26,882 nucleotides of DNA from a virus. This document shows, piece by piece, positions 6,881-15,880 of this stretch. Numbering within the stretch: the stretch's first letter is position 1; the number at the start of each line of letters is the position of its first letter. A model generated the notes under the pieces. That model searched no databases, was not told the origin of the DNA, and saw only the letters and a list, made by a program, of their open reading frames with translations. The stretch is taken from positions 1 to 26,882 of IMG/VR virus record IMGVR_UViG_3300006030_000090; one strand, given 5' to 3'. A program made the translations under genes and the position numbers.

Positions 6881-7876
6881 ATGCCTAACCCGACAAGATC
6901 AGACGTTCACGTTAACAGGCCGCTTACGAATATCGCATTGGATTTTACTCAGTCGCAAGACAAGTTTGTTTCCTCGCGTATCTTCCCGAACGTGCCTGTT
7001 AAGAATCGCTCTGATAGCTACTTCACCATTGATCGTGGTGATTTCAACCGTAATCAGGCTCGCCTTCGCGCTCCTGGTACTGAATCTGCTGGTAACGGAT
7101 ATGATGTATCGACTGCAACGTATGCTTGCGATGTTGTAGCGTTCCACAAGGACGTTGACGATCAAATTCGCGCCAACACAGACGCTCCGTTGATGCCCGA
7201 TATGAGCGCAACGAAGCTGGTTACGACCCAACTTTTGATCTATCGTGAAAAAGATTGGGTAACGAACTACTTCGCTGGCGGTATCTGGACTATAGACTAT
7301 GATGGTAACTCAACTGGCCCGACTGGTGCTACGAACGAAGTTTACTATTGGAGTGACTATACGAACTCCGATCCGATCAGAGATGTTCGCACAGTTTGTA
7401 CGTCAGTACAGGAATCGACTGGCTACCGTCCTAACGTGATGGTAGTTGGTCGCGCCGTTCTTGATAAGCTACTGGATCACCCAGATGTAATTGATCGTGT
7501 AAAATACGGTCAATCCAGCGGTAATGTTGCTATGGCTAACAAACAAATCCTTGCCCAACTTTTTGATGTAGAGCGCATTGAAGTAATGAGCTCAATCGAA
7601 AATACGGCAGATGAAGGCCAGGCGAACAGCCATAGCTTTATCGGTGGGAAAAAAGCCCTGCTGGTTTACGCTCCGGATGCTCCTAGCATCGATACTCCGT
7701 CTGCTGGCTATACGTTTAGCTGGACTGGCTACACAGGTGCTACGCAGAACGGTATCCGCATCAGCAAGCTCCGTATGGAGCATCTGAAATCTGATCGTGT
7801 TGAGGGTGAAATTGCCTTCGATCACAAACTGGTTTCCGCTGATCTTGGCGCTTTTTTCGACACAGTGATTGCGTAA
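6881..7876 (+). CDS. Major capsid protein
   Basis: The 331-residue protein has the features of an HK97-fold major capsid protein of the unprocessed, short N-arm type. It opens 'PTRSDVHVNRPLTNIALDFTQ', followed by 'FVSSRIFPNVPVKNRSDSYF' and a central 'REKDWVTNYF' helix. The region about 185-215 ('GYRPNVMVVGRAVLDKLLDH', then 'VIDRVKYG') is a recurrent capsid-protein pattern. The gene has a very good Shine-Dalgarno (AAGGAG) before ATG 6881, strong codon bias, and a strong terminator 17 bases after its stop. It assembles the icosahedral shell and follows its decoration gene directly. No long N-terminal delta domain is present, which agrees with a separately encoded scaffold. Confidence 0.92.
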   Translation: MPNPTRSDVHVNRPLTNIALDFTQSQDKFVSSRIFPNVPVKNRSDSYFTIDRGDFNRNQARLRAPGTESAGNGYDVSTATYACDVVAFHKDVDDQIRANTDAPLMPDMSATKLVTTQLLIYREKDWVTNYFAGGIWTIDYDGNSTGPTGATNEVYYWSDYTNSDPIRDVRTVCTSVQESTGYRPNVMVVGRAVLDKLLDHPDVIDRVKYGQSSGNVAMANKQILAQLFDVERIEVMSSIENTADEGQANSHSFIGGKKALLVYAPDAPSIDTPSAGYTFSWTGYTGATQNGIRISKLRMEHLKSDRVEGEIAFDHKLVSADLGAFFDTVIA

Positions 7877-7892
7877 ATAAAATATTTACTTC

Positions 7893-7922
7893 AAACGGGG
7901 GCTTTACCGCCCCCGTTTTTTT
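7893..7922 (+). terminator. Strong intrinsic terminator after major capsid gene
   Basis: AACGGGGGC and GCCCCCGTT make a 9-bp GC-rich stem with a 6-base TTTACC loop, followed by a run of seven T. It marks the end of the highly expressed capsid unit and separates it from the accessory island. Confidence 0.93.
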
Positions 7923-7961: not shown

Positions 7962-8426
7962 ATGGCGCGATACAGTCAATCTTTTTTCGATATTACTCAA
8001 CCGTTATTTGTCAGAAAAGAATTTGCTGGTAATAACAGGATTTGGTTGCCTGGTATGCTATTCGATTGGAAGCATTTCAAAATCGCCCCGCAACGTGTAA
8101 GGGCGTTATTCAGATCATCCTATATATGCCATGCAGCACAAGAATCTCTAGATGTTGAGGTGGTAATTACTAACTCAGAGCCAGAAAATCAAGACCATCA
8201 AATTAAGACAGACGATAATAAAGAACCAATCTCAAAGCAAACTAAATACGAAATCCGTCAAGTCGGCGGGCCATATTACGATGTAATTTCACCTGACGGA
8301 AAAACCGTAAATCACAAATCACTACATAAGAGCAAAGCAGAAAGTTTTGCCGCGAAGTTGAACAGTGGAGTTAATACCGATGAAGCCTCAACCACAGAAC
8401 TTGCCGGAGATACTGCAAACGGATGA
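7962..8426 (+). CDS. Unknown protein directly after the capsid terminator
   Basis: The 154-residue protein starts at ATG 7962 with GAGAGGG seven bases upstream. Its first half has many aromatics (Trp36, then a second 'FDWKHF') and the string 'RVRALFRSSYICHAA', which looks like a short folded domain I cannot name. A charged, Gln/Asn/Asp-rich linker (about 68-95) leads to a small beta-like C-terminal unit, 'YEIRQVGGPYYDVISPDGK', with a following Lys/Ser helix. The last 47 bases overlap the next gene. Function unknown. Short proteins just downstream of a major capsid gene are often head-tail joining or capsid accessory proteins, but no motif proves that here. Confidence 0.75.
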   Translation: MARYSQSFFDITQPLFVRKEFAGNNRIWLPGMLFDWKHFKIAPQRVRALFRSSYICHAAQESLDVEVVITNSEPENQDHQIKTDDNKEPISKQTKYEIRQVGGPYYDVISPDGKTVNHKSLHKSKAESFAAKLNSGVNTDEASTTELAGDTANG

Positions 8427-9015
8427 AATATATGTCCTGTTCGGTGGGCCATCTCTAAAAAATTTCGATCTATCAAGACTTAATAGCAAAACCGTACTGG
8501 CTTGCAATAAGTGTGCTGAGATGTATCCGGCTCAGGTCGTTATCAGTATTGATCCAACGTATATCAATACCAGATGTAAATTCCTACGTGATTACCCTGG
8601 ATATGTTTCTCTTGGATATAGAGCGACAGAATTTGGTGAGAATCAAAAACCTAACGATGCTGTGATAGGTGGTATAGATCCTGACTATCTATATTGGCAC
8701 GATAAGCGCTTTCCTGATCGTATGTCCACAATACCTAGTACGTTGTACGGACAGCATACCGGACATGCAGCGATAAATTTCCTGATGTTGCAGGGCTTCA
8801 AAACAATTCATGCCCTTGGACTAGACCTTAATGTTGCTGGTCATTGGCATGGTGGATATACGCACAGCAGGCAGCATAAAGAATGGCTGTTGAATTGGGC
8901 AGCTCATATTGATGGCTGTAAGCATCAGTTGGATGATGCTGGAATGAGGATTATTAATTATAATCAGAATAGTGCGGTGCGAAATTATGAGTTCGCATCG
9001 CTTGATAGTATATAG
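8380..9015 (+). CDS. MptE/DUF115-like 'GGPS' protein 1 (glycan-related)
   Basis: The 211-residue protein carries the hallmarks of the DUF115/6-hydroxymethylpterin pyrophosphokinase MptE-like superfamily, which includes Maf-type flagellin glycosyltransferases: 'GGPSLKN' at 22-28 after a beta strand, 'SIDPT' at 56-60, 'GHAAINFL' at 128-135 and 'ALGLDL' at 145-150. The layout matches the protein at 12392. In such folds the Gly-Gly-Pro-Ser loop contacts a nucleotide or nucleotide-sugar phosphate. I chose ATG 8380 because GGAG lies nine bases upstream; a GTG at 8365 is also in frame. It overlaps the previous gene by 47 bases. Likely a sugar transfer or activation step; substrate not determinable. 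Confidence 0.72.
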   Translation: MKPQPQNLPEILQTDEIYVLFGGPSLKNFDLSRLNSKTVLACNKCAEMYPAQVVISIDPTYINTRCKFLRDYPGYVSLGYRATEFGENQKPNDAVIGGIDPDYLYWHDKRFPDRMSTIPSTLYGQHTGHAAINFLMLQGFKTIHALGLDLNVAGHWHGGYTHSRQHKEWLLNWAAHIDGCKHQLDDAGMRIINYNQNSAVRNYEFASLDSI

Positions 9016-9212
9016 GGGGAGGAACTCGACTCCTTTCTTGGGCGCGGCAGAACGTCCATCAATGTTGCAGATGTGGATTGGAACGATCCCCCAAACTGTT
9101 TTATTGTTCTAGTCCATCAAAAGGTGCTGTTCCTTTAAAAGCATTTAGCACCAAATTTGCGAAAAATGGGAGCGCCCCCTGCCAAAGTGGGGGCATTTAA
9201 ATAGGAGCGAAA
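9016..9212 (+). other. 197-base structured gap between DUF115-like 1 and a small ORF
   Basis: No convincing gene is present. Three potential pairings are visible: GGGGGA (9016-9021) with TCCCCC about 65 bases later, GGTGCT (9123-9128) with AGCACC (9147-9152), and GCCCCC (9174-9179) with GGGGGC (9189-9194) followed by ATTTA. The last resembles a weak terminator or attenuator 18 bases before the ATG at 9213. It is the longest gene-free stretch in the window. It could be a regulatory leader or small RNA, or simply spacer DNA. Confidence 0.4.
9174..9198 (+). terminator. Weak terminator- or attenuator-like hairpin
   Basis: A 6-bp all-GC stem with a 9-base loop is followed by ATTTAA rather than a full T-run. 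It lies directly upstream of the RBS of the small gene at 9213, so it could lower read-through into the island. Confidence 0.35.
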
Positions 9213-9416
9213 ATGAGTATTGATGATTTAGCGAAGCAACTACCAGAAGATTGTGTATGGTATCTTGCCAAATGTCATAAAGATGATATGCAAGGAAAAC
9301 ATTACGCTGAGATGACAATTCGTGTTGGGAGTTCTGTTAATATGGAATTTTGTTATTCAGATACAGCATATGGAGCCATGTCTGGATTGGTAAACAAGGT
9401 ACTAAGTAAAAGATAG
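9213..9416 (+). CDS. Small unknown protein at the head of the sulfotransferase run
   Basis: The 67-residue protein starts with ATG behind an excellent AGGAG (AATAGGAGCGAAAATG) and stops one base before the sulfotransferase start, so the two are probably translationally coupled. It is a mixed alpha/beta protein with several Met and Cys residues ('WYLAKCHKDDMQGKHYAEMTI') and a C-terminal helix. There is no signal peptide or membrane span. The good RBS and tight spacing make it a real gene. No family is recognised. Confidence 0.7.
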   Translation: MSIDDLAKQLPEDCVWYLAKCHKDDMQGKHYAEMTIRVGSSVNMEFCYSDTAYGAMSGLVNKVLSKR

Positions 9417-9417
9417 A

Positions 9418-9969
9418 ATGATAATTAACCTACCAGATTTAAATGCTGTTTTTTTCTGTCCGCAGAAGGTTGCAAGCACGTCAATCAAGCAAGCGATTCT
9501 AAGGTCATTTGATGTGCCTGTTAAGGATGGAAAGAAATGGGAGAGGGATCATTCAATCAGCATTTCCGAGATAGAAGATGAGGATGTATTTGGATTCGTA
9601 AGAAATCCATTTGATAGACTGGTATCGTGCTATCACAATCAATGTATTAGCGAAAATAGATACGATCTTGGTAAGAGATGTAATTTCCATGATTTCGTGA
9701 TCTATGTTGTCGGCCAAAATCAAGACGAAGCAGATAAGCATTTTAAGCCACTGAGTAAGACAATACCGAATCATGTTACATTTATTGGCAGGTTTGAATC
9801 TCTACAGAGTGACTGGTCTTTTATAAGGTCACGCCTTCCTATGCTTTCACCACTAAAGCACGAAAATAAGACTAAAAACAGAAAGCACTGGTCTAAATAT
9901 TACGATTCCAGCACCTTAACGCTTGTCTATGAATACTATAAAAGTGACTTTGAAAGGTTTAATTACTGA
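9418..9969 (+). CDS. Sulfotransferase (PAPS-dependent, Sulfotransfer_2-like)
   Basis: The 183-residue protein has both PAPS-binding signatures in canonical order. The 5'-phosphosulfate loop is 'PQKVASTSIKQAI' at 15-27, and the 3'-phosphate site is 'FVRNPFDRLVSCY' at 60-72. Later 'FIGRFESLQSDW' (122-133) and a C-terminal 'YYDSSTLTLVYEYYKSDF' helix are typical of carbohydrate sulfotransferases of the chondroitin/heparan and bacterial Nod-factor type. The expected reaction is transfer of sulfate from PAPS to a sugar hydroxyl; PAPS would come from the host. There is no membrane anchor, so it should act in the cytoplasm. It is compact (183 residues against 230-300 in many homologues) but holds both motifs. 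It sits between a small ORF and a glycosyltransferase, suggesting the acceptor is a glycan made by its neighbours. Confidence 0.85.
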   Translation: MIINLPDLNAVFFCPQKVASTSIKQAILRSFDVPVKDGKKWERDHSISISEIEDEDVFGFVRNPFDRLVSCYHNQCISENRYDLGKRCNFHDFVIYVVGQNQDEADKHFKPLSKTIPNHVTFIGRFESLQSDWSFIRSRLPMLSPLKHENKTKNRKHWSKYYDSSTLTLVYEYYKSDFERFNY

Positions 9970-9970
9970 T

Positions 9971-10645
9971 ATGGCATATCCGCATATAATTGGTGAATAT
10001 GAAACACTTTCTGCCATAAAAGGTGGCATGTCCATTGCAAGATACGGAGATGGAGAATTTAATCTTGCTGGTTTTAGAAAGTGTGTGTCACAGGAGGCTG
10101 ATAGAAAGTTACAGGCAGAGTTACAACAGATATTGCAAAAGGGATCTAATGGCAAATTGGCTGTGGCTGTACCTCCTCTTGATAACACTGGGCGACTGCC
10201 AGAGGGAAAAAAACGTGATTTCTGGACAAGGCAGGCGAAGTCAGTTTCAAAGCACCTAAATCCAAAAGCTAAATATTATAGCAGTTTTATTACAAGATCA
10301 GATAATGCCCCTTGGATCGACACGCCGGAATTCTGGAATGGCCTTGTTGATCTGTGGCGCGACAAAGATATAACTCTTGTTATAGGCTCTGAAAGGAGTC
10401 TGTGCGAACGTAATATATCTGAGGCGAAAAGTGTAAAATATGTTCGTGGGTTGTACAGAGATTCGTACAGAGAGATTGACAGGGTAGAAAAAGAGATACG
10501 AGATGCTGGAAATAAAACCGTTATTCTATGCCTTGGCGCAACAGCAACGGTTTTGGCTTATAGATTGTGTAATGATTTTCATGCTCTCGATCTCGGTCAT
10601 ATCGGAATGAAAAGAATGTTTATGAAGGGGCGCGGCCTTGTATAA
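9971..10645 (+). CDS. GT-D-fold glycosyltransferase (DUF1792-like)
   Basis: The 224-residue protein has the GT-D family signature 'SIARYGDGEF' (21-30), whose Asp-x-Glu element is the metal or nucleotide-sugar site, and the conserved 'DLGHIG' (207-212) near the end. In between are a nucleotide-sugar-like 'ITLVIGSERSLCERN' strand-loop and a 'VILCLGATATVLAYRL' segment. GT-D enzymes add sugars to serine-rich repeat glycoproteins in Gram-positive bacteria; phage members are also seen. I chose ATG 9971 over an upstream in-frame start because it follows the sulfotransferase stop by one base and the conserved domain begins there. It overlaps the next gene by eight bases. The donor sugar and acceptor are unknown. 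Confidence 0.82.
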   Translation: MAYPHIIGEYETLSAIKGGMSIARYGDGEFNLAGFRKCVSQEADRKLQAELQQILQKGSNGKLAVAVPPLDNTGRLPEGKKRDFWTRQAKSVSKHLNPKAKYYSSFITRSDNAPWIDTPEFWNGLVDLWRDKDITLVIGSERSLCERNISEAKSVKYVRGLYRDSYREIDRVEKEIRDAGNKTVILCLGATATVLAYRLCNDFHALDLGHIGMKRMFMKGRGLV

Positions 10646-11276
10646 CGTAGTATTCAATTCTCAATATAATCTATGGGTTCCAGCGGACGAACCAAGGCTC
10701 CTGCAAAAAGATTGGTTTGAAAAAACCATGAGGACAGTCGGACGTGATACAGATTTCGTCATCAGACGAAGTAAACATAGAGTCTGCGTTCAGGCTGGTG
10801 CTTGCTTTGGCATTTGGCCACAGCACTTGTCAAAGACATACGAAACTGTAATTACATTTGAGCCAGACCCAGTTTTGTTTGAATGCGTACGGCTAAATAC
10901 AAATGCGCTAAAAGTCATGGCTATGAATTCTGCTGTAGGAGCTAAGCAAGATTCTGTGCTTTTCTATAGAGCAAAGCATGGAACCAGCACAACTGTTCCC
11001 AATCCAAATAACACACCAACCGAAACGTACAAGGTTCATCAGGTGACAATTGATAGCCTTGATCTAGAGGTGTGTGACGCAATATTTCTTGATATTGAGC
11101 GTGGAGAGCCAGATGCATTGCGCGGAGCGGCTGAAACTATTAAAAAATTCAAGCCACCAATTCAGGTTGAGATGCACGATAAAAGCAAGGATGAAATTCA
11201 TTCAGTTTTAACTGGAATGGGATATGTTATGGCCGAAAGAGTTGGAAGTAGAGATATGGTATATCTCCATGCATGA
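10638..11276 (+). CDS. FkbM-type SAM-dependent methyltransferase
   Basis: The 212-residue protein matches the FkbM methyltransferase fold: motif I region 'VCVQAGACFGIWPQHL' (49-64), acidic SAM-ribose site 'FEPDP' (74-78), and 'IFLDIERGEPDALRGA' (149-164), which corresponds to the usual Lys-Ile-Asp-Val-Glu-Gly motif. FkbM family members O-methylate sugars and polyketides. Motif I is unusual: Gln52 stands where Asp is common ('VDVGAN.G'). The start is TTG 10638, eight bases inside the previous gene, with GAAGGGG seven bases upstream. Gene order suggests it methylates a sugar placed by the GT-D enzyme. Its stop overlaps the next start by eight bases. Confidence 0.85.
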   Translation: MYNVVFNSQYNLWVPADEPRLLQKDWFEKTMRTVGRDTDFVIRRSKHRVCVQAGACFGIWPQHLSKTYETVITFEPDPVLFECVRLNTNALKVMAMNSAVGAKQDSVLFYRAKHGTSTTVPNPNNTPTETYKVHQVTIDSLDLEVCDAIFLDIERGEPDALRGAAETIKKFKPPIQVEMHDKSKDEIHSVLTGMGYVMAERVGSRDMVYLHA

Positions 11277-11880
11277 TTTTGTAATTGGTGATGATGAGTA
11301 TAAATATCTCTACATTCAATGCGGGGATATAGCGCACATCAATGATCGTAAAAATTGGCACACAGCATACAACAGGCGTATGAACAGATTGTACGAATCT
11401 CTTAAACCATTCCTCCCATTGCAATGTAATAGCATACTTGATATCGGCTCTGGGCTTGGTGGGGTTGATGTCCTGCTATCAAAGCACTACGCAGGAAGTG
11501 CGAGCGTGGAGCTTCTTGATGGTGAGAGCGATCTTCCAGTGGTAAATAAACACGCGGAAACATTTTCAAACCATGCTGTCATGTCTGGATTTCTGTCAAA
11601 AAACGGTGTCAAAAACTTCTCATTATCTTCTCCGCAAAAATACGACATTATACCACGCGATTTGATAGTTTCTTTTTCGGCATACTGCTTCCACATACCA
11701 GTTGATAAGTACCTGAAATTAATAGTAGAATCATCAAACGATGATACTGTATGTATATTCCGAATCAGGGATGGCAAGAATTATCTTGAAGTGCTTAAAC
11801 AATATTTTCCAAACGTAAGAATTGTCAACGAGCAAAAAAAGGGCGACATCATATGTCTTTCAAAAAGTACGGCTTTATAA
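11269..11880 (+). CDS. Class I SAM-dependent methyltransferase A
   Basis: The 203-residue protein has motif I 'ILDIGSGLGGVDVLLSK' at 56-72 and a following acidic loop ('VELLDGESD') consistent with SAM binding. The middle is a Rossmann-like alternation with 'DLIVSFSAYCFHIP' as a motif IV-like strand, and 'CIFRIRDGKNYLEVL' near the end. I chose ATG 11269 over in-frame codons further upstream because it overlaps the FkbM stop by eight bases, like its neighbours. It contains no DNA methyltransferase catalytic motif (no Asn/Asp-Pro-Pro-Tyr, no Pro-Cys), so a small molecule or sugar target is more likely. It overlaps the following methyltransferase by 28 bases. Confidence 0.8.
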   Translation: MHDFVIGDDEYKYLYIQCGDIAHINDRKNWHTAYNRRMNRLYESLKPFLPLQCNSILDIGSGLGGVDVLLSKHYAGSASVELLDGESDLPVVNKHAETFSNHAVMSGFLSKNGVKNFSLSSPQKYDIIPRDLIVSFSAYCFHIPVDKYLKLIVESSNDDTVCIFRIRDGKNYLEVLKQYFPNVRIVNEQKKGDIICLSKSTAL

Positions 11881-12425
11881 GTGATGAATACAGGGTGCTA
11901 AACATAAAGCACCACATAAAGAAGCGCGATGAGCAAAAGCCTTGGGGCAATGATGGGAAGCACCACAGGAAACAGGTATCATCATTTTGTGATGAGCTTG
12001 TAGCAAAAACAGTTCTTGATTATGGTTGTGGCAACGGAAGTCTTAAAAGGTCTATGGAAGAAAACTACGGTAAAAAATACACGATCACAGAATATGATCC
12101 ATGTATCATAGGCAAGTGTGAGAAACGACCAGATAAATCTGATGTCGTGGTGTGTACAGACGTAATTGAACACGTTGAGATGGAATTTTTGAATAAGTTC
12201 ATCTACGAAATTTATAATAGATGCCTGAAGGGTTTGTATCTGACAATCTCTACGAGAGAAGCAAATGAGTTTTTACCGGATGGAACAAACGCCCATAGGA
12301 TTGTCAGGAGTTCAGAGTGGTGGATCAATAGACTTACAGAAATGAAGATTCCGATTGATCGTGCAGACATTAGAGATAAAGGGGTAACGCTATGGATCAA
12401 GAAACCTCAACCAAAAGAGATGTAA
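11853..12425 (+). CDS. Class I SAM-dependent methyltransferase B (Methyltransf_23-like)
   Basis: The 190-residue protein has motif I 'VLDYGCGNGSLKRSM' (54-68) and motif III/IV 'DVVVCTDVIEHVEMEFL' (97-113), the Asp-Val-Ile-Glu-His signature of Methyltransf_23/Ubie-like enzymes. The C-terminal 'LYLTISTREANEFLPDGTNAH' is close to small phage methyltransferases of glycan clusters. No target-recognition domain is present. It starts at ATG 11853, with AAAGGG upstream inside the previous gene, and overlaps the following gene by 34 bases. Like the two before it, it probably methylates a sugar or metabolite. Having three distinct methyltransferases in a row suggests several positions on one glycan, or different sugars. 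Confidence 0.84.
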   Translation: MSFKKYGFISDEYRVLNIKHHIKKRDEQKPWGNDGKHHRKQVSSFCDELVAKTVLDYGCGNGSLKRSMEENYGKKYTITEYDPCIIGKCEKRPDKSDVVVCTDVIEHVEMEFLNKFIYEIYNRCLKGLYLTISTREANEFLPDGTNAHRIVRSSEWWINRLTEMKIPIDRADIRDKGVTLWIKKPQPKEM

Positions 12426-13036
12426 TTATCATAGCTGGTGGCCCGTCAGTTAAAGACATTCCAGCAGCAACTCTAAAAGATTACGGGTATGTCATTGGCG
12501 TAAACGAAAGCGCGATCTTGTTTCCTTGTGATGAGGCTTTGTCTATGGACAGGCTTTGGATGGAAGCAAGGTATGAGCAACTACAGTGGATGGAGATACC
12601 GACATTTTTTAGGAGGTGCGCCTGGAAGGTTGGTATTGAGTGGCCAAATCTTACTCAGTTTAATGGTGATATAAAAGCTAGTGGACTATCAGATAGCAGA
12701 GATACTCTTTTTGGCAGGAACAGTGGCCAATGTGCTATCAACAGGGCGTATCACATAGAGCCAGATCGTATCTTTCTTTTTGGTTTCGATATGAAGTCAG
12801 ATAACAAATCTCATTATTTCTATGACCAGTCAGACCTGGTCGAAAAGAAGCGTGGGTTGACTAACAAGAAAATCAAGCCACCAACCGACACAAGATATTT
12901 GGAATGGATGCCAGCGTTCAAATCAATAGCCAGTAAACTTTCCGAAAGCGGAATAAAAACATATAACGTATATCCAGATAGTGCGGTACAGGATTTTGAA
13001 AAAATATCATGGAGCGATTTTAAGAGGATGTTTTGA
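12392..13036 (+). CDS. MptE/DUF115-like 'GGPS' protein 2 (glycan-related)
   Basis: The 214-residue protein has the same motif order as the protein at 8380: 'IIIAGGPSVKD' (12-22), 'SMDR' (51-54), 'SGQCAINRA' (111-119) and 'IFLFGFDM' (127-134). The two are clearly the same fold, but sequence identity looks low, so they are divergent paralogues or independent acquisitions. In the superfamily these motifs sit around a nucleotide or nucleotide-sugar pocket. ATG 12392 has AAAGGGG upstream and lies inside the previous gene by 34 bases. It probably acts on the same glycan pathway as the neighbours; no substrate can be named. Confidence 0.74.
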   Translation: MDQETSTKRDVIIIAGGPSVKDIPAATLKDYGYVIGVNESAILFPCDEALSMDRLWMEARYEQLQWMEIPTFFRRCAWKVGIEWPNLTQFNGDIKASGLSDSRDTLFGRNSGQCAINRAYHIEPDRIFLFGFDMKSDNKSHYFYDQSDLVEKKRGLTNKKIKPPTDTRYLEWMPAFKSIASKLSESGIKTYNVYPDSAVQDFEKISWSDFKRMF

Positions 13037-13078
13037 TTGACCGGATTGGGTTTTCGTGTGAAGATTCAGTATCTAGAA

Positions 13079-13099
13079 ACCGATGGAGTTACCGATGAA
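13079..13099 (+). repeat. Paired CCGATG-type direct repeat, copy 2
   Basis: ACCGATGGA and ACCGATGAA stand 12 bases apart. The second copy contains the ATG of the lipoprotein gene and the first supplies its GGAG. Compare the pairs at 5580 and 18133. Confidence 0.45.
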
Positions 13100-13187
13100 A
13101 TTTAGTGATCTTATGCAGGCATTTCTACTGCTTTGTTTTATTCTTTCCGTATCAGGATGCACAGCTAGAATTTGGGGTTTTATCTAA
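13095..13187 (+). CDS. Minute lipoprotein (30 residues)
   Basis: ATG 13095 has GGAG seven bases upstream and opens a 30-codon frame whose stop TAA ends directly before the next ATG at 13188. The product starts Met-Lys, has a hydrophobic core 'MQAFLLLCFILSVSG' at 7-21 and a lipobox Val-Ser-Gly-Cys with Cys22. After signal peptidase II cleavage only nine residues (Cys-Thr-Ala-Arg-Ile-Trp-Gly-Phe-Ile) would remain on the lipid anchor. Candidates are a superinfection-exclusion or receptor-blocking lipoprotein (as T5 Llp is in principle), a small envelope peptide, or a Rz1-like spanin, which is less likely as no Rz gene surrounds it. It was found by eye, being shorter than usual gene-calling limits. 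Confidence 0.65.
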   Translation: MKFSDLMQAFLLLCFILSVSGCTARIWGFI

Positions 13188-13979
13188 ATGAGCGATCATT
13201 ATTATGTAATTTACCCGTACTACGAGAATCCAAAAATGCTAGAAAAGCAAGTTGAGAATTGGAACCGTTTTAGTGGGGATTTGCAGAAAAAAATTACATT
13301 TATCTTGGTTGATGATTCAAGTCCGATATATCCAGCGGCAGAAATATTCAAGGAATTACGTCACAGAAAAATTCTGTTCAGGGTAAAAGAAAACATTCCG
13401 TGGGCGCAACATCACGCAAGGAATGTTGGTGCGCTTGAGGCTGGAAAGCACTCAAGAAAAAACTACGATATTGCTAATCCGTGGTTGCTGATGTCTGATA
13501 TGGACATCATCATTACACCTGAAGCGATGAATGACATTGTTGAGAAATGTACTGACGCAACACGCTATCATACATTTGAGAGAAAATTTATTGGTGGAGC
13601 GAGGGAGCCAAAATATCATTGCAATACATTCCTAGTGAAGCATGATAACTACTGGTCTATCAACGGATATGACTGCGATTACTGCGGAACGTATGGCGGT
13701 GATGGAAGGTTCCTACAGCAACTTGAGCAGGTGGCTCCACAACTTCATCACGGATACTCAAGTAGGCATTTAAAATCATATGTTGAGTGTACTGGTGATC
13801 CAATCACTTTATTCGGATACGAATCGAATGTCGTATCTGATGCAAACACTACTGAGTGGGAACGTAAGAATAGCGAGTTCCACGAAAAATACAGGGCGAT
13901 ATTGGCAAATAAGAAACAACGTGGAGATGAAAGAAGTAAAAATCCTATTAGGTGGGGGTATGAGGAGGTTGTTCTGTGA
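13188..13979 (+). CDS. Family 2 (GT-A fold) glycosyltransferase
   Basis: The 263-residue protein shows a GT2 layout: 'VIYPYYENPKMLEKQVENW' near the start, the nucleotide-binding 'ITFILVDDSSP' (36-46), and the Asp-x-Asp motif 'LMSDMDIII' (101-109). A C-terminal acceptor/catalytic region 'WSINGYDCDYCGTYGGDGRF' (156-175) corresponds to the Trp-x-x-x-Asn-Gly-Tyr-Asp-x-x-Tyr pattern of bacterial GT2 enzymes. Both metal-binding aspartates are present. It is short and soluble, with no membrane segment, so it should use a nucleotide sugar in the cytoplasm. The start lies right after the lipoprotein stop and it ends in a GTGA junction with the next gene. Confidence 0.85.
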   Translation: MSDHYYVIYPYYENPKMLEKQVENWNRFSGDLQKKITFILVDDSSPIYPAAEIFKELRHRKILFRVKENIPWAQHHARNVGALEAGKHSRKNYDIANPWLLMSDMDIIITPEAMNDIVEKCTDATRYHTFERKFIGGAREPKYHCNTFLVKHDNYWSINGYDCDYCGTYGGDGRFLQQLEQVAPQLHHGYSSRHLKSYVECTGDPITLFGYESNVVSDANTTEWERKNSEFHEKYRAILANKKQRGDERSKNPIRWGYEEVVL

Positions 13980-15019
13980 CACTTGTGGTCATTGAATCTC
14001 CATACGCCGGAGATGTAAAAACACACACCGAATACGCGAACAGGGCGATTAGGGATTCTATCAATCGCGGTGAGCATCCGTTTGCCAGTCATATTCTTTA
14101 CACACAAGCATTGCAAGATTGTGATCCAGATCAGAGAAAGACTGGTATCAACTGCGGATACTCTTGGGGAAAACACGCTAAAAAAATTGCCGTTTACACA
14201 GACTACGGAATTTCAAATGGTATGCAGCAGGCTATGGGGTATTACAACAAAATTGGCATACCGATTGAATACAGAAAGATAGGGAAAAATATGGAGAAAC
14301 CGATTTCTATCGTTGTATTCAAGTGGAAGAAAGATGGATACAGAACGAAATTTACAGCCGATCATGTCAATCGCTTCTTTAGAATGATTGACCGACATGT
14401 TACAGTACCACATAGAAAAATTTGTATTACTGATGATTTTAGTGGAATTGATGACCGCATTGAAAAGATAAAATTGTGGCCGAATCCGTGTCCAAGGTAC
14501 GGTAACGAAATGAAGCCGAATTGTTTTTATCGGCTAAGAATGTTCGATCCTGAAATTAAGGAAATTGTCGGTGATAAATTTTGCTGGTTTGATCTTGACG
14601 CTGTTATTGTTGGGAACATAGATCACATTTTAACAGATCAGTCTGATTTCAGGATGTGGAGGGTAGATGGTGAGTTCATGCCATGTAACGGATCACTTTG
14701 CCTGCATACAGTTGGAACTAGGAGTCAATTCTGGAAGGAGTTCAGGGCTGATAAGGTTCACCCCGTAACTGGTCTTAAAGCGGCTGGATTCATTGGTAGC
14801 GATCAGGCTTACCTTGCAACAAAAATGACTCAGATTGAAAAAGACAATGGATTTGGTAAGGCCGATGGAATCTATAGCTATCGCTGTCACCTGAAAAAGC
14901 GCGGTATAAAAGATATACCGGAGGACTGTAAGATACTGTTTTTTCATGGCTTACAAAATCCTTGGGACGATGATATAGTGAAGAATAACCAATGGGCAAA
15001 GGAGTATATGTCGATATGA
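13976..15019 (+). CDS. DUF7768 domain fused to a phage glycosyltransferase
   Basis: The 347-residue protein has two parts. Residues 1-103 match DUF7768 (a nucleoside 2-deoxyribosyltransferase-like fold): 'IESPYAGDVKTHTEYANRA', 'GEHPFASHILYTQ', 'QRKTGINCGYSWG' and 'VYTDYGISNGMQQAM'. Residues 108-347 are a GT-like domain with 'WFDLDAVIVGNI' (204-215, Asp-x-Asp), 'PCNGSLCLH' (236-244), 'GSDQAYL' (274-280) and 'LFFHG' (321-325), the pattern of GT8-like enzymes in phages. GTG 13976 has a near-perfect GAGGAGG upstream. In-frame ATG 14291 (residue 106) has AGGG six bases upstream, so the GT could also be made alone. The fusion suggests the N-terminal domain supplies or processes a nucleotide or sugar-nucleotide. 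Confidence 0.82.
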   Translation: MTLVVIESPYAGDVKTHTEYANRAIRDSINRGEHPFASHILYTQALQDCDPDQRKTGINCGYSWGKHAKKIAVYTDYGISNGMQQAMGYYNKIGIPIEYRKIGKNMEKPISIVVFKWKKDGYRTKFTADHVNRFFRMIDRHVTVPHRKICITDDFSGIDDRIEKIKLWPNPCPRYGNEMKPNCFYRLRMFDPEIKEIVGDKFCWFDLDAVIVGNIDHILTDQSDFRMWRVDGEFMPCNGSLCLHTVGTRSQFWKEFRADKVHPVTGLKAAGFIGSDQAYLATKMTQIEKDNGFGKADGIYSYRCHLKKRGIKDIPEDCKILFFHGLQNPWDDDIVKNNQWAKEYMSI

Positions 15020-15171
15020 TTAAGTTTCCATTTAAGATTGTTAAACGTAACTATATTTCAGATATGGAAGCGGAGATTGATTATTTAGAGATATTGGTTT
15101 TAAGTCTGCGTAGTAAGCTAGAAAAAGCAGAGAAAGTAAAAAAAGACAATAAGAAAGTTAAAAAGAAATGA
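15016..15171 (+). CDS. Small basic coiled-coil protein
   Basis: The 51-residue ORF overlaps the previous stop as ATGA (15016-15019) and ends as ATGA with the next gene (15168-15171). Residues 14-41 look like an amphipathic coiled coil ('YISDMEAEIDYLEILVLSL'), and the last 15 residues are mostly Lys. It is too short for most gene callers. Coupling on both sides makes it credible as the last gene of the island, but function is unknown. Confidence 0.65.
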   Translation: MIKFPFKIVKRNYISDMEAEIDYLEILVLSLRSKLEKAEKVKKDNKKVKKK

Positions 15172-15608
15172 GCTGGACGTTTGATGATGCTGACATATCC
15201 ACAGACCTTGCAAAAGTAAGAGTCTTAATTGGTGATGTTGATACATCTGATCAGCTTCTATCTGATGAGATGATTAATTACTTCCTAACCGTTGATGATA
15301 ACGTATTTGGCGCTGCATCGTTGGCGGCAAAGTCTGTACAGGCTAAATTCGCAAGGCTGGCAGATACTACCATTGAGGGGGTGTCAGTCAAATACACGCA
15401 GAAAGCTGTTGCCTATGGTGATCTTGCTTCAGACTTGGCATCTCAGGCGCTTGACAATGACCTTCCAACCCCATCTGTATTCGGCGTTTCCAAGGATGCT
15501 ATCAGAGATCAACGTGATGATGATGATCGTGTCGGTGAGCGTTTCTATCAAGACCAATTTAGCAATCCACCGGAAGGGTCAATTAAGGTTGACGGACAGG
15601 ATGTGTGA
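15168..15608 (+). CDS. Head-tail adaptor (HK97 gp6-like connector)
   Basis: The 146-residue, mostly helical protein starts Met-Ser-Trp and shows 'VRVLIGDVDTSDQLLSDEMINYFL' followed by 'NVFGAASLAAKSVQAKFARLAD', the recurrent pattern of phage head-tail adaptor proteins (gp6/SPP1 gp15-type). The acidic 'DQRDDDDRVGERF' C-terminal segment is also common in them. These form a dodecameric ring under the portal that extends the DNA channel and accepts the stopper. It restores the canonical head-to-tail gene order after the accessory island. Confidence 0.87.
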   Translation: MSWTFDDADISTDLAKVRVLIGDVDTSDQLLSDEMINYFLTVDDNVFGAASLAAKSVQAKFARLADTTIEGVSVKYTQKAVAYGDLASDLASQALDNDLPTPSVFGVSKDAIRDQRDDDDRVGERFYQDQFSNPPEGSIKVDGQDV

Positions 15609-15880
15609 TGCTTAGAAACGATGTGCTTGATACAGCAAAGGGTCTTATTAATGGTGAGCGTCAAGAGCAATACGGCTCTCCGCAGGCTAATTTTCAGCGT
15701 ATTGCAGATATGTGGAACGCATATTTGCCAGATCATGTAAGAATTTGTGCCGCAGACGTTGCGGTGATGATGACTCTTGTTAAGGTCGCAAGACTCTCGA
15801 ATACAATCAGTCATGCCGATTCGTTTGTGGATGCCGCTGGATACCTTGCGCTTGGAGCAGAACTGTCAGAGGCCAAGTAA
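15608..15880 (+). CDS. DUF6378-like protein
   Basis: The 90-residue helical protein has the DUF6378 pattern: 'GERQEQYGSPQANFQRIADMW' (18-38), then 'DVAVMMTLVKVARLS' and 'HADSFVDAAGYLALG'. Related small all-alpha proteins occur in many phages and are sometimes compared with MazG-like nucleotide pyrophosphohydrolases, but their activity is not established. I chose ATG 15608, which overlaps the adaptor stop; a GTG at 15605 is also possible. It ends one base before the head closure gene, so it is embedded in the connector operon. Confidence 0.8.
   Translation: MLRNDVLDTAKGLINGERQEQYGSPQANFQRIADMWNAYLPDHVRICAADVAVMMTLVKVARLSNTISHADSFVDAAGYLALGAELSEAK

Follow-up and report, generated by a model that had tools for sequence, protein, structure and literature searches.

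Positions 8380-15019 of IMG/VR record IMGVR_UViG_3300006030_000090, from an uncultured virus, encode an island of ten open reading frames (ORFs A-J), all on the + strand and lodged between the major capsid protein (MCP) gene and an adaptor-like gene. The fragment of this record that was analysed, positions 1-26,882 (26,882 nucleotides, nt), is referred to below as the window. The encoded functions are chiefly the transfer of sugar, methyl and sulfate groups. Far from being unique to this phage, most of these genes belong to a widespread conserved cassette: it recurs, in the same order and at the same place, in about a hundred environmental phages, while cultured phages hardly ever have it. The cassette, the core genes of which follow the order A, D, F/G, H, I, J, probably serves a late-expressed O-glycosylation of virion proteins, accompanied by methylation and, in the studied phage, by sulfation.

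Enzymes encoded by the island

Family assignments were based on Pfam, PHROG and NCBIfam profile searches. The original prediction had placed an enzyme island between the capsid and adaptor genes of this phage; all genes that it named were present at 8380-15019, and the family profiles agreed with it:

8380-9015, +: A, GT42/sialyltransferase-like protein of the MptE/DUF115 superfamily; PHROG 4603 (annotated sialyltransferase), 8.9e-13; aligns with the H family
9213-9416, +: B, orphan ORF of 67 amino acids (aa); no relatives found
9418-9969, +: C, sulfotransferase; Sulfotransfer_2 (PF03567), 1.1e-19, 72 bits against a cut-off of 22
9929-10645, +: D, GT-D glycosyltransferase (PF08759); 2e-26, 93.4 bits against a cut-off of 27
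10638-11276, +: E, FkbM-family methyltransferase; FkbM, 1.7e-12
11266-11880, +: F, class I S-adenosylmethionine (SAM) methyltransferase; weak as a single sequence (Methyltransf_16, E 0.01), SAM motif LDIGSGLGGID clear in the family
11853-12425, +: G, SAM methyltransferase; Methyltransf_23, 3e-9
12392-13036, +: H, second GT42/sialyltransferase-like protein; PHROG 4603, 2.6e-16
13188-13979, +: I, GT2 glycosyltransferase; weak as a single sequence, family profile matching GmaR and other GT2 structures at about 1e-5
13976-15019, +: J, DUF7768 (residues 1-100) fused in frame to a GT8-like GT-A domain (residues 110-347, DLD motif); DUF7768 6.6e-29, glycosyltransferase domain PHROG 1962 3e-15

Neighbouring genes overlap by 41 nt (C/D), 8 nt (D/E), 11 nt (E/F), 28 nt (F/G), 34 nt (G/H) and 4 nt (I/J), and gaps of 197 nt and 151 nt separate A from B and H from I, respectively. 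Two motifs of C, PQKVASTS and RNPFDRLVSCY, were read off the sequence as resembling binding sites for 3'-phosphoadenosine 5'-phosphosulfate. The GDGE (DxE) motif was invariant in the alignment of the D family, whose profile matched GalT1/dGT1 (PDB 4phr) with an E value of 1e-33; as a single sequence, D matched DUF1792 (8e-21). No island protein has a membrane segment, and Pfam and PHROG scans of these proteins recognised no flippase, polymerase or acceptor-lipid gene and no gene for sugar-nucleotide synthesis.

The two proteins A and H had been described as an 'MptE/DUF115-like' pair. Both do belong to this superfamily, but a GT42/sialyltransferase-like label is better suited, on account of PHROG 4603 and of the AlphaFold model of H (pLDDT 91.5), for which CstII was the top PDB match (E 2.2e-6, probability 1.00, TM about 0.5) and MptE the second (7e-4). 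A pterin enzyme of the MptE kind was rejected, as MptE was merely the second fold match and Pfam scores were under the cut-off. The label is preferred rather than proven: identity between H and the CstII/MptE superfamily amounts to 17-18%, and in the alignments of A and H (A4 and A8), judged by eye, the catalytic histidine of GT42 had no clearly conserved equivalent.

The predicted DUF7768-glycosyltransferase fusion of J was recovered with both domains, and its glycosyltransferase part can now be specified as GT8/GT-A. In a comparison of the predicted structure with the PDB, this domain was closest to pneumococcal GlyE and to glycogenin (E 1e-6). The DUF7768 part (window 13976-14275), for which the model was of poor quality, matched PHROG 355, a nucleoside 2-deoxyribosyltransferase. 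Among all fetched loci, the fusion was found only in the studied phage and its near kin L085-L087. About 360 phage records match J, mostly from Vibrio phages; among the matches listed, it was mostly the DUF7768 part only that was matched.

Recurrence and placement of the cassette

Related loci were gathered by similarity to D or to the GT8-like domain of J alone and not by position, so that their position constitutes an independent result. The first relatives were Tetraselmis viridis virus S20/SI1, detected by tblastn among phage records, and IMG/VR contigs L088, L089 and L090, detected by a scan of viral contigs; in S20 and these contigs, the homologues of D, G, F, H, I and J are arranged almost as in the window. 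Viral scans with the single sequences of J, D, H and C gave few or no relatives, and alignment queries were therefore required. Those built on D (A1) and on the J domain (A2) returned 174 and 370 encoding stretches, respectively, and in addition 13 loci from bacterial genomes; from each set of stretches, the best 80 were retained.

Profile searches over all ORFs of the gathered loci resulted in 127 non-redundant loci. Gene blocks were confined to one strand in 126 of 126 cases. D, A/H, I and J were found together in 57 full blocks, 55 of which kept the order D, I, J, and D was fused to G in 42 related blocks. The accessory content of the full blocks was variable, with E present in 19, F in 40, G in 51 and the sulfotransferase C in only two, so that sulfation lies outside the core. 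Among 50,697 phage records, the combination of GT-D, GT2 and GT8 was restricted to Tetraselmis virus S20/SI1 (NC_020840, HQ632857, HQ632858). No paper describing the cassette was found in the open-access literature, subscription literature being mostly outside the search.

A comparison with related phages, for the same gene set at the same position, had been proposed with the original prediction. Structural genes were recognised on both sides of 49 blocks: 40 of these lay between head (capsid or portal) and neck genes, six within the neck block and three within the head block. A naive binomial estimate with one junction in 50 gives 2e-59 and ignores kinship among loci. The tree of D mostly tracks the capsid context (about six changes for five contexts), indicating about five independent placements and not 40. 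The contexts include HK97-type, lambda-E-type and fused-protease capsids as well as T7-like podoviruses; at 30% identity, at least six MCP groups are distinguished. In the prophage L241 of Bradyrhizobium sp. JYMT SZCCT0428, for instance, lambda-type portal, protease, decoration and capsid genes stand directly upstream of a full cassette. Where no structural genes had been recognised around a cassette, PHROG matches of the flanking proteins pointed mainly to head genes. Partial cases were also observed: a sulfotransferase directly after the coat gene in CBW1004C-Prop1 and a G-like methyltransferase directly after that of the cultured Roseobacter phage CRP-9.

In the window, the cassette is bordered by the following features:

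6881-7876, +: MCP gene, upstream boundary; PHROG 1005, 8e-84; Phage_cap_E type
7893-7918, +: hairpin resembling an intrinsic terminator, between the MCP gene and the cassette; -19.1 kcal/mol, z -4.7, T tail; putative function
7962-8426, +: post-MCP ORF, 154 aa; no family; 47-nt overlap between its 3' end and the start of gene A
15168-15608, +: adaptor-like gene (gp6 position), downstream boundary; PHROG 1732, 9e-17

The last of these had been called a head-tail adaptor gene. It matches PHROG 1732, the function field of which is blank in PHROGs, and the adaptor label therefore rests on position and synteny. The adaptor-like gene adjoins J in L085-L087 too.

Relatives with the window-type capsid differ at this junction. 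In six of them (L002, L025, L028, L060, L061 and L076), just 0.4-0.8 kb separate the capsid gene from the adaptor gene, whereas in others it is occupied by 6-10 kb of genes foreign to the cassette; only one of the 80 loci with this capsid holds any cassette family, and at another place than the MCP-adaptor junction. The junction thus accepts cargo, which in the studied phage consists of glycan genes. The insertion is real and not a chance arrangement, since the junction is short in six capsid relatives and these genes are found again, in unchanged order, at other loci.

A similar picture was obtained for the main cassette lineage, whose capsid is about 45% identical to HK97 gp5. No cassette gene was found in 72 of 79 HK97-type MCP relatives (one of these 72 records ends inside the capsid gene), and reduced cassettes, consisting of A/H only or of A/H and J, also occur among these relatives. 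The distance from the capsid gene to the head-closure gene is 0.3-1.1 kb in cassette-free relatives, where visible, against 3-6 kb in cassette carriers. In HK97 itself the adaptor gene directly follows gp5, and a putative terminator is annotated after gp5. Like the window, HK97-type cassette relatives have a small post-MCP ORF overlapping A.

Other arrangements were also recorded. A sister clade among L008-L081, with 6-10 kb between MCP and adaptor, has a conserved run of small genes (about 132, 90, 181, 65, 225 and 109 aa) followed by variable genes; its junction genes gave no match to cassette families. L150, a contig with a capsid of the window's family, has a cassette upstream of its head genes rather than after the MCP gene. 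In Caulobacter phage CcrSC (L333), a GT42-like protein, hypothetical proteins and a G-like methyltransferase are clustered between tail and endolysin genes (10897-15383).

Proposed function and alternative explanations

Virion O-glycosylation is favoured because D and J resemble enzymes of the Fap1/PsrP type and because membrane proteins and thymidylate-synthase-type genes are absent. As in phage virion glycosylation systems, the glycosyltransferase genes lie in or beside the virion genes. According to the proposed mechanism, the cassette would be expressed late, together with the head and neck genes, and its enzymes, being soluble, would act in the cytoplasm on newly made virion protein. Their acceptor would be synthesised along with them and is most likely a head or neck protein encoded on the shared transcript. 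The GT42-like proteins A and H, the GT-D enzyme D, the GT2 enzyme I and the GT8-like domain of J may assemble a short O-linked glycan, which E, F and G would methylate and which C would sulfate in the studied phage. Host nucleotide sugars are proposed as donors because no gene for their synthesis was recognised in the island. The strong T-tailed hairpin at 7893-7918 suggests that the cassette genes are read through at a reduced level, so that one transcript would supply the enzymes too, in reduced, catalytic quantities. The phage would probably profit from an altered surface of its virions, through stability, reduced sticking or a change in adsorption, but this is guesswork.

The original prediction of a methylated, sulfated glycan, probably on the virion, is thus strengthened, in that the genes are conserved, lie beside head genes in several capsid contexts and encode soluble enzymes, some of which resemble those of protein O-glycosylation, and has to be modified insofar as sulfation is accessory. 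The analysis lent no support to the suggested role against immune or antibody-like defence. We know of no sulfated virion glycan on a bacteriophage. A broader proposal is put forward tentatively, and may well not hold: that one O-glycosylation pathway for capsid or neck proteins is common to HK97-type, lambda-type and T7-like environmental phages that are rarely represented in culture collections, the glycan being sulfated in the studied phage. If so, virion protein glycosylation would be a widespread strategy of environmental tailed phages, recognisable by one gene set, instead of being peculiar to mycobacteriophages. The particles of numerous uncultured phages would be sugar-coated, with a bearing on adsorption, stability and grazing. 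A few cassette prophages reside in cultured bacteria, which makes a direct test feasible.

Several observations weigh against virion glycosylation. The head-neck position could partly reflect inheritance along with the structural module. In the T7-like group the cassette precedes the portal/head-tail adaptor gene and does not follow the MCP gene, and giant Caulobacter phages carry related genes beside tail and lysis genes. Furthermore, sequence comparisons of cassette phages revealed no acceptor. The repeated P/S/T/R end of the post-MCP ORF in HK97-type cassette phages was considered as an acceptor motif and rejected, since it is an alternative-frame reading of the start of gene A that encodes GxGPS. 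Serine- and threonine-rich C-terminal tails of the MCP were likewise discarded as a mark of glycosylation, as cassette-free relatives, HK97 included, have them too. The protein encoded at 1394, one of the acceptors suggested by the original prediction, has the highest Ser/Thr content (22%) among the window proteins compared, and part of it is matched by a structural PHROG; the ORFs of the fetched loci include no relative of this protein, and nothing ties it to the cassette.

The same enzymes could instead alter host surface glycans late in infection, for example against the sticking of progeny to debris or against re-infection. FkbM, GT2, GT8 and sulfotransferase enzymes are generally known to work on envelope glycans elsewhere, and an integrase in six of 21 relatives indicates that some of these phages may be temperate. 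The lack of membrane segments and of flippase, polymerase and acceptor-lipid genes in the island argues in the opposite direction, as do the location of the genes in the late head-neck block and the conservation of their placement beside head genes across several capsid contexts; action on the host surface is thus considered unlikely. A third possibility is that the genes form no single pathway and are cargo, neutral or acquired recently, at a junction that tolerates insertions. This would agree with the other genes that this junction takes and with the variable content of the full blocks. It is hard to reconcile with the conserved order, the single strand, the D-G fusions and the open frames, or with the invariance of DxE in D, DLD in J and the SAM motif in F across sequences that are about 30-50% identical, and is accordingly viewed as quite improbable.

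Modification of nucleic acid, with glycosylated or hypermodified phage DNA as the product and the nucleoside-deoxyribosyltransferase-like DUF7768 taking part, appears the least probable of these explanations, and very much so. Phage glycosyltransferases often target DNA, and the PHROG 355 match of J points to nucleosides. However, DUF7768 is fused to J only in the studied phage and its close kin, and the thymidylate-synthase family (PF00303), which includes the makers of hydroxymethylated pyrimidines, was absent from all 21 cassette records although positive controls matched, which leaves this explanation unsupported. A search for Tet/JBP was also negative in cassette records, but its positive control gave no match either.

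Comparison with known systems and neighbouring genes

Virion glycosylation is already known from mycobacteriophages, in which phage-encoded glycosyltransferases and glycans on the capsid and tail tube have been reported (Freeman et al. 2023, via PMC11256854, PMC11600133 and PMC12619734); in cluster O, as far as these accounts go, the glycosyltransferase genes stand beside an O-methyltransferase gene. The cassette shares phage-encoded glycosyltransferases with these phages, but comprises a different enzyme set, with GT-D, paired GT42-like proteins, several methyltransferases and, here, a sulfotransferase. Together with its conserved order and broad distribution, this enzyme set makes the cassette a probable new form of phage virion glycosylation. 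No mycobacteriophage was among the tblastn matches of D, H, I, C or the J domain of a relative in phage records, the published mycobacteriophage enzymes not being among the queries.

The GT-D domain of dGT1 adds glucose to Glc-GlcNAc on glycoprotein Fap1 (PMC5063993). D is likewise a GT-D enzyme, and the fold of J is nearest to GlyE, so that the O-glycosylation of Fap1 and PsrP (dGT1/GalT1, GlyE) offers a parallel to which the cassette adds methyl- and sulfo-transferring enzymes. No serine-rich-repeat substrate, GtfA/GtfB-like initiating pair or accessory Sec genes were recognised among the island proteins.

In Tetraselmis viridis virus S20/SI1 the cassette also lies between the MCP gene and the head closure gene Hc1. 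This virus differs from the window by its HK97-type capsid and by the absence of a sulfotransferase match and of a DUF7768 fusion. Its glycan genes have been annotated one by one, and no paper describing them was found in the open-access literature. An algal host is recorded for S20 (L082, NC_020840); its terminase, HK97-type capsid and tail genes are typical of a tailed bacteriophage, making the host label doubtful.

With regard to neighbouring genes, the post-MCP ORF of HK97-type cassette phages (e.g. L123, 7251-7712) consists of a conserved N-terminal domain of about 50 aa and a low-complexity tail, the end of which overlaps gene A in another frame. Directly after the adaptor-like gene of the window, a DUF6378 protein (1.1e-31) is encoded at 15605-15880. 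In several PHROGs, DUF6378 forms the C-terminal portion of longer phage proteins annotated as 'phosphofructokinase'. This protein and the DUF7768 part of J lie close together and may be functionally linked.

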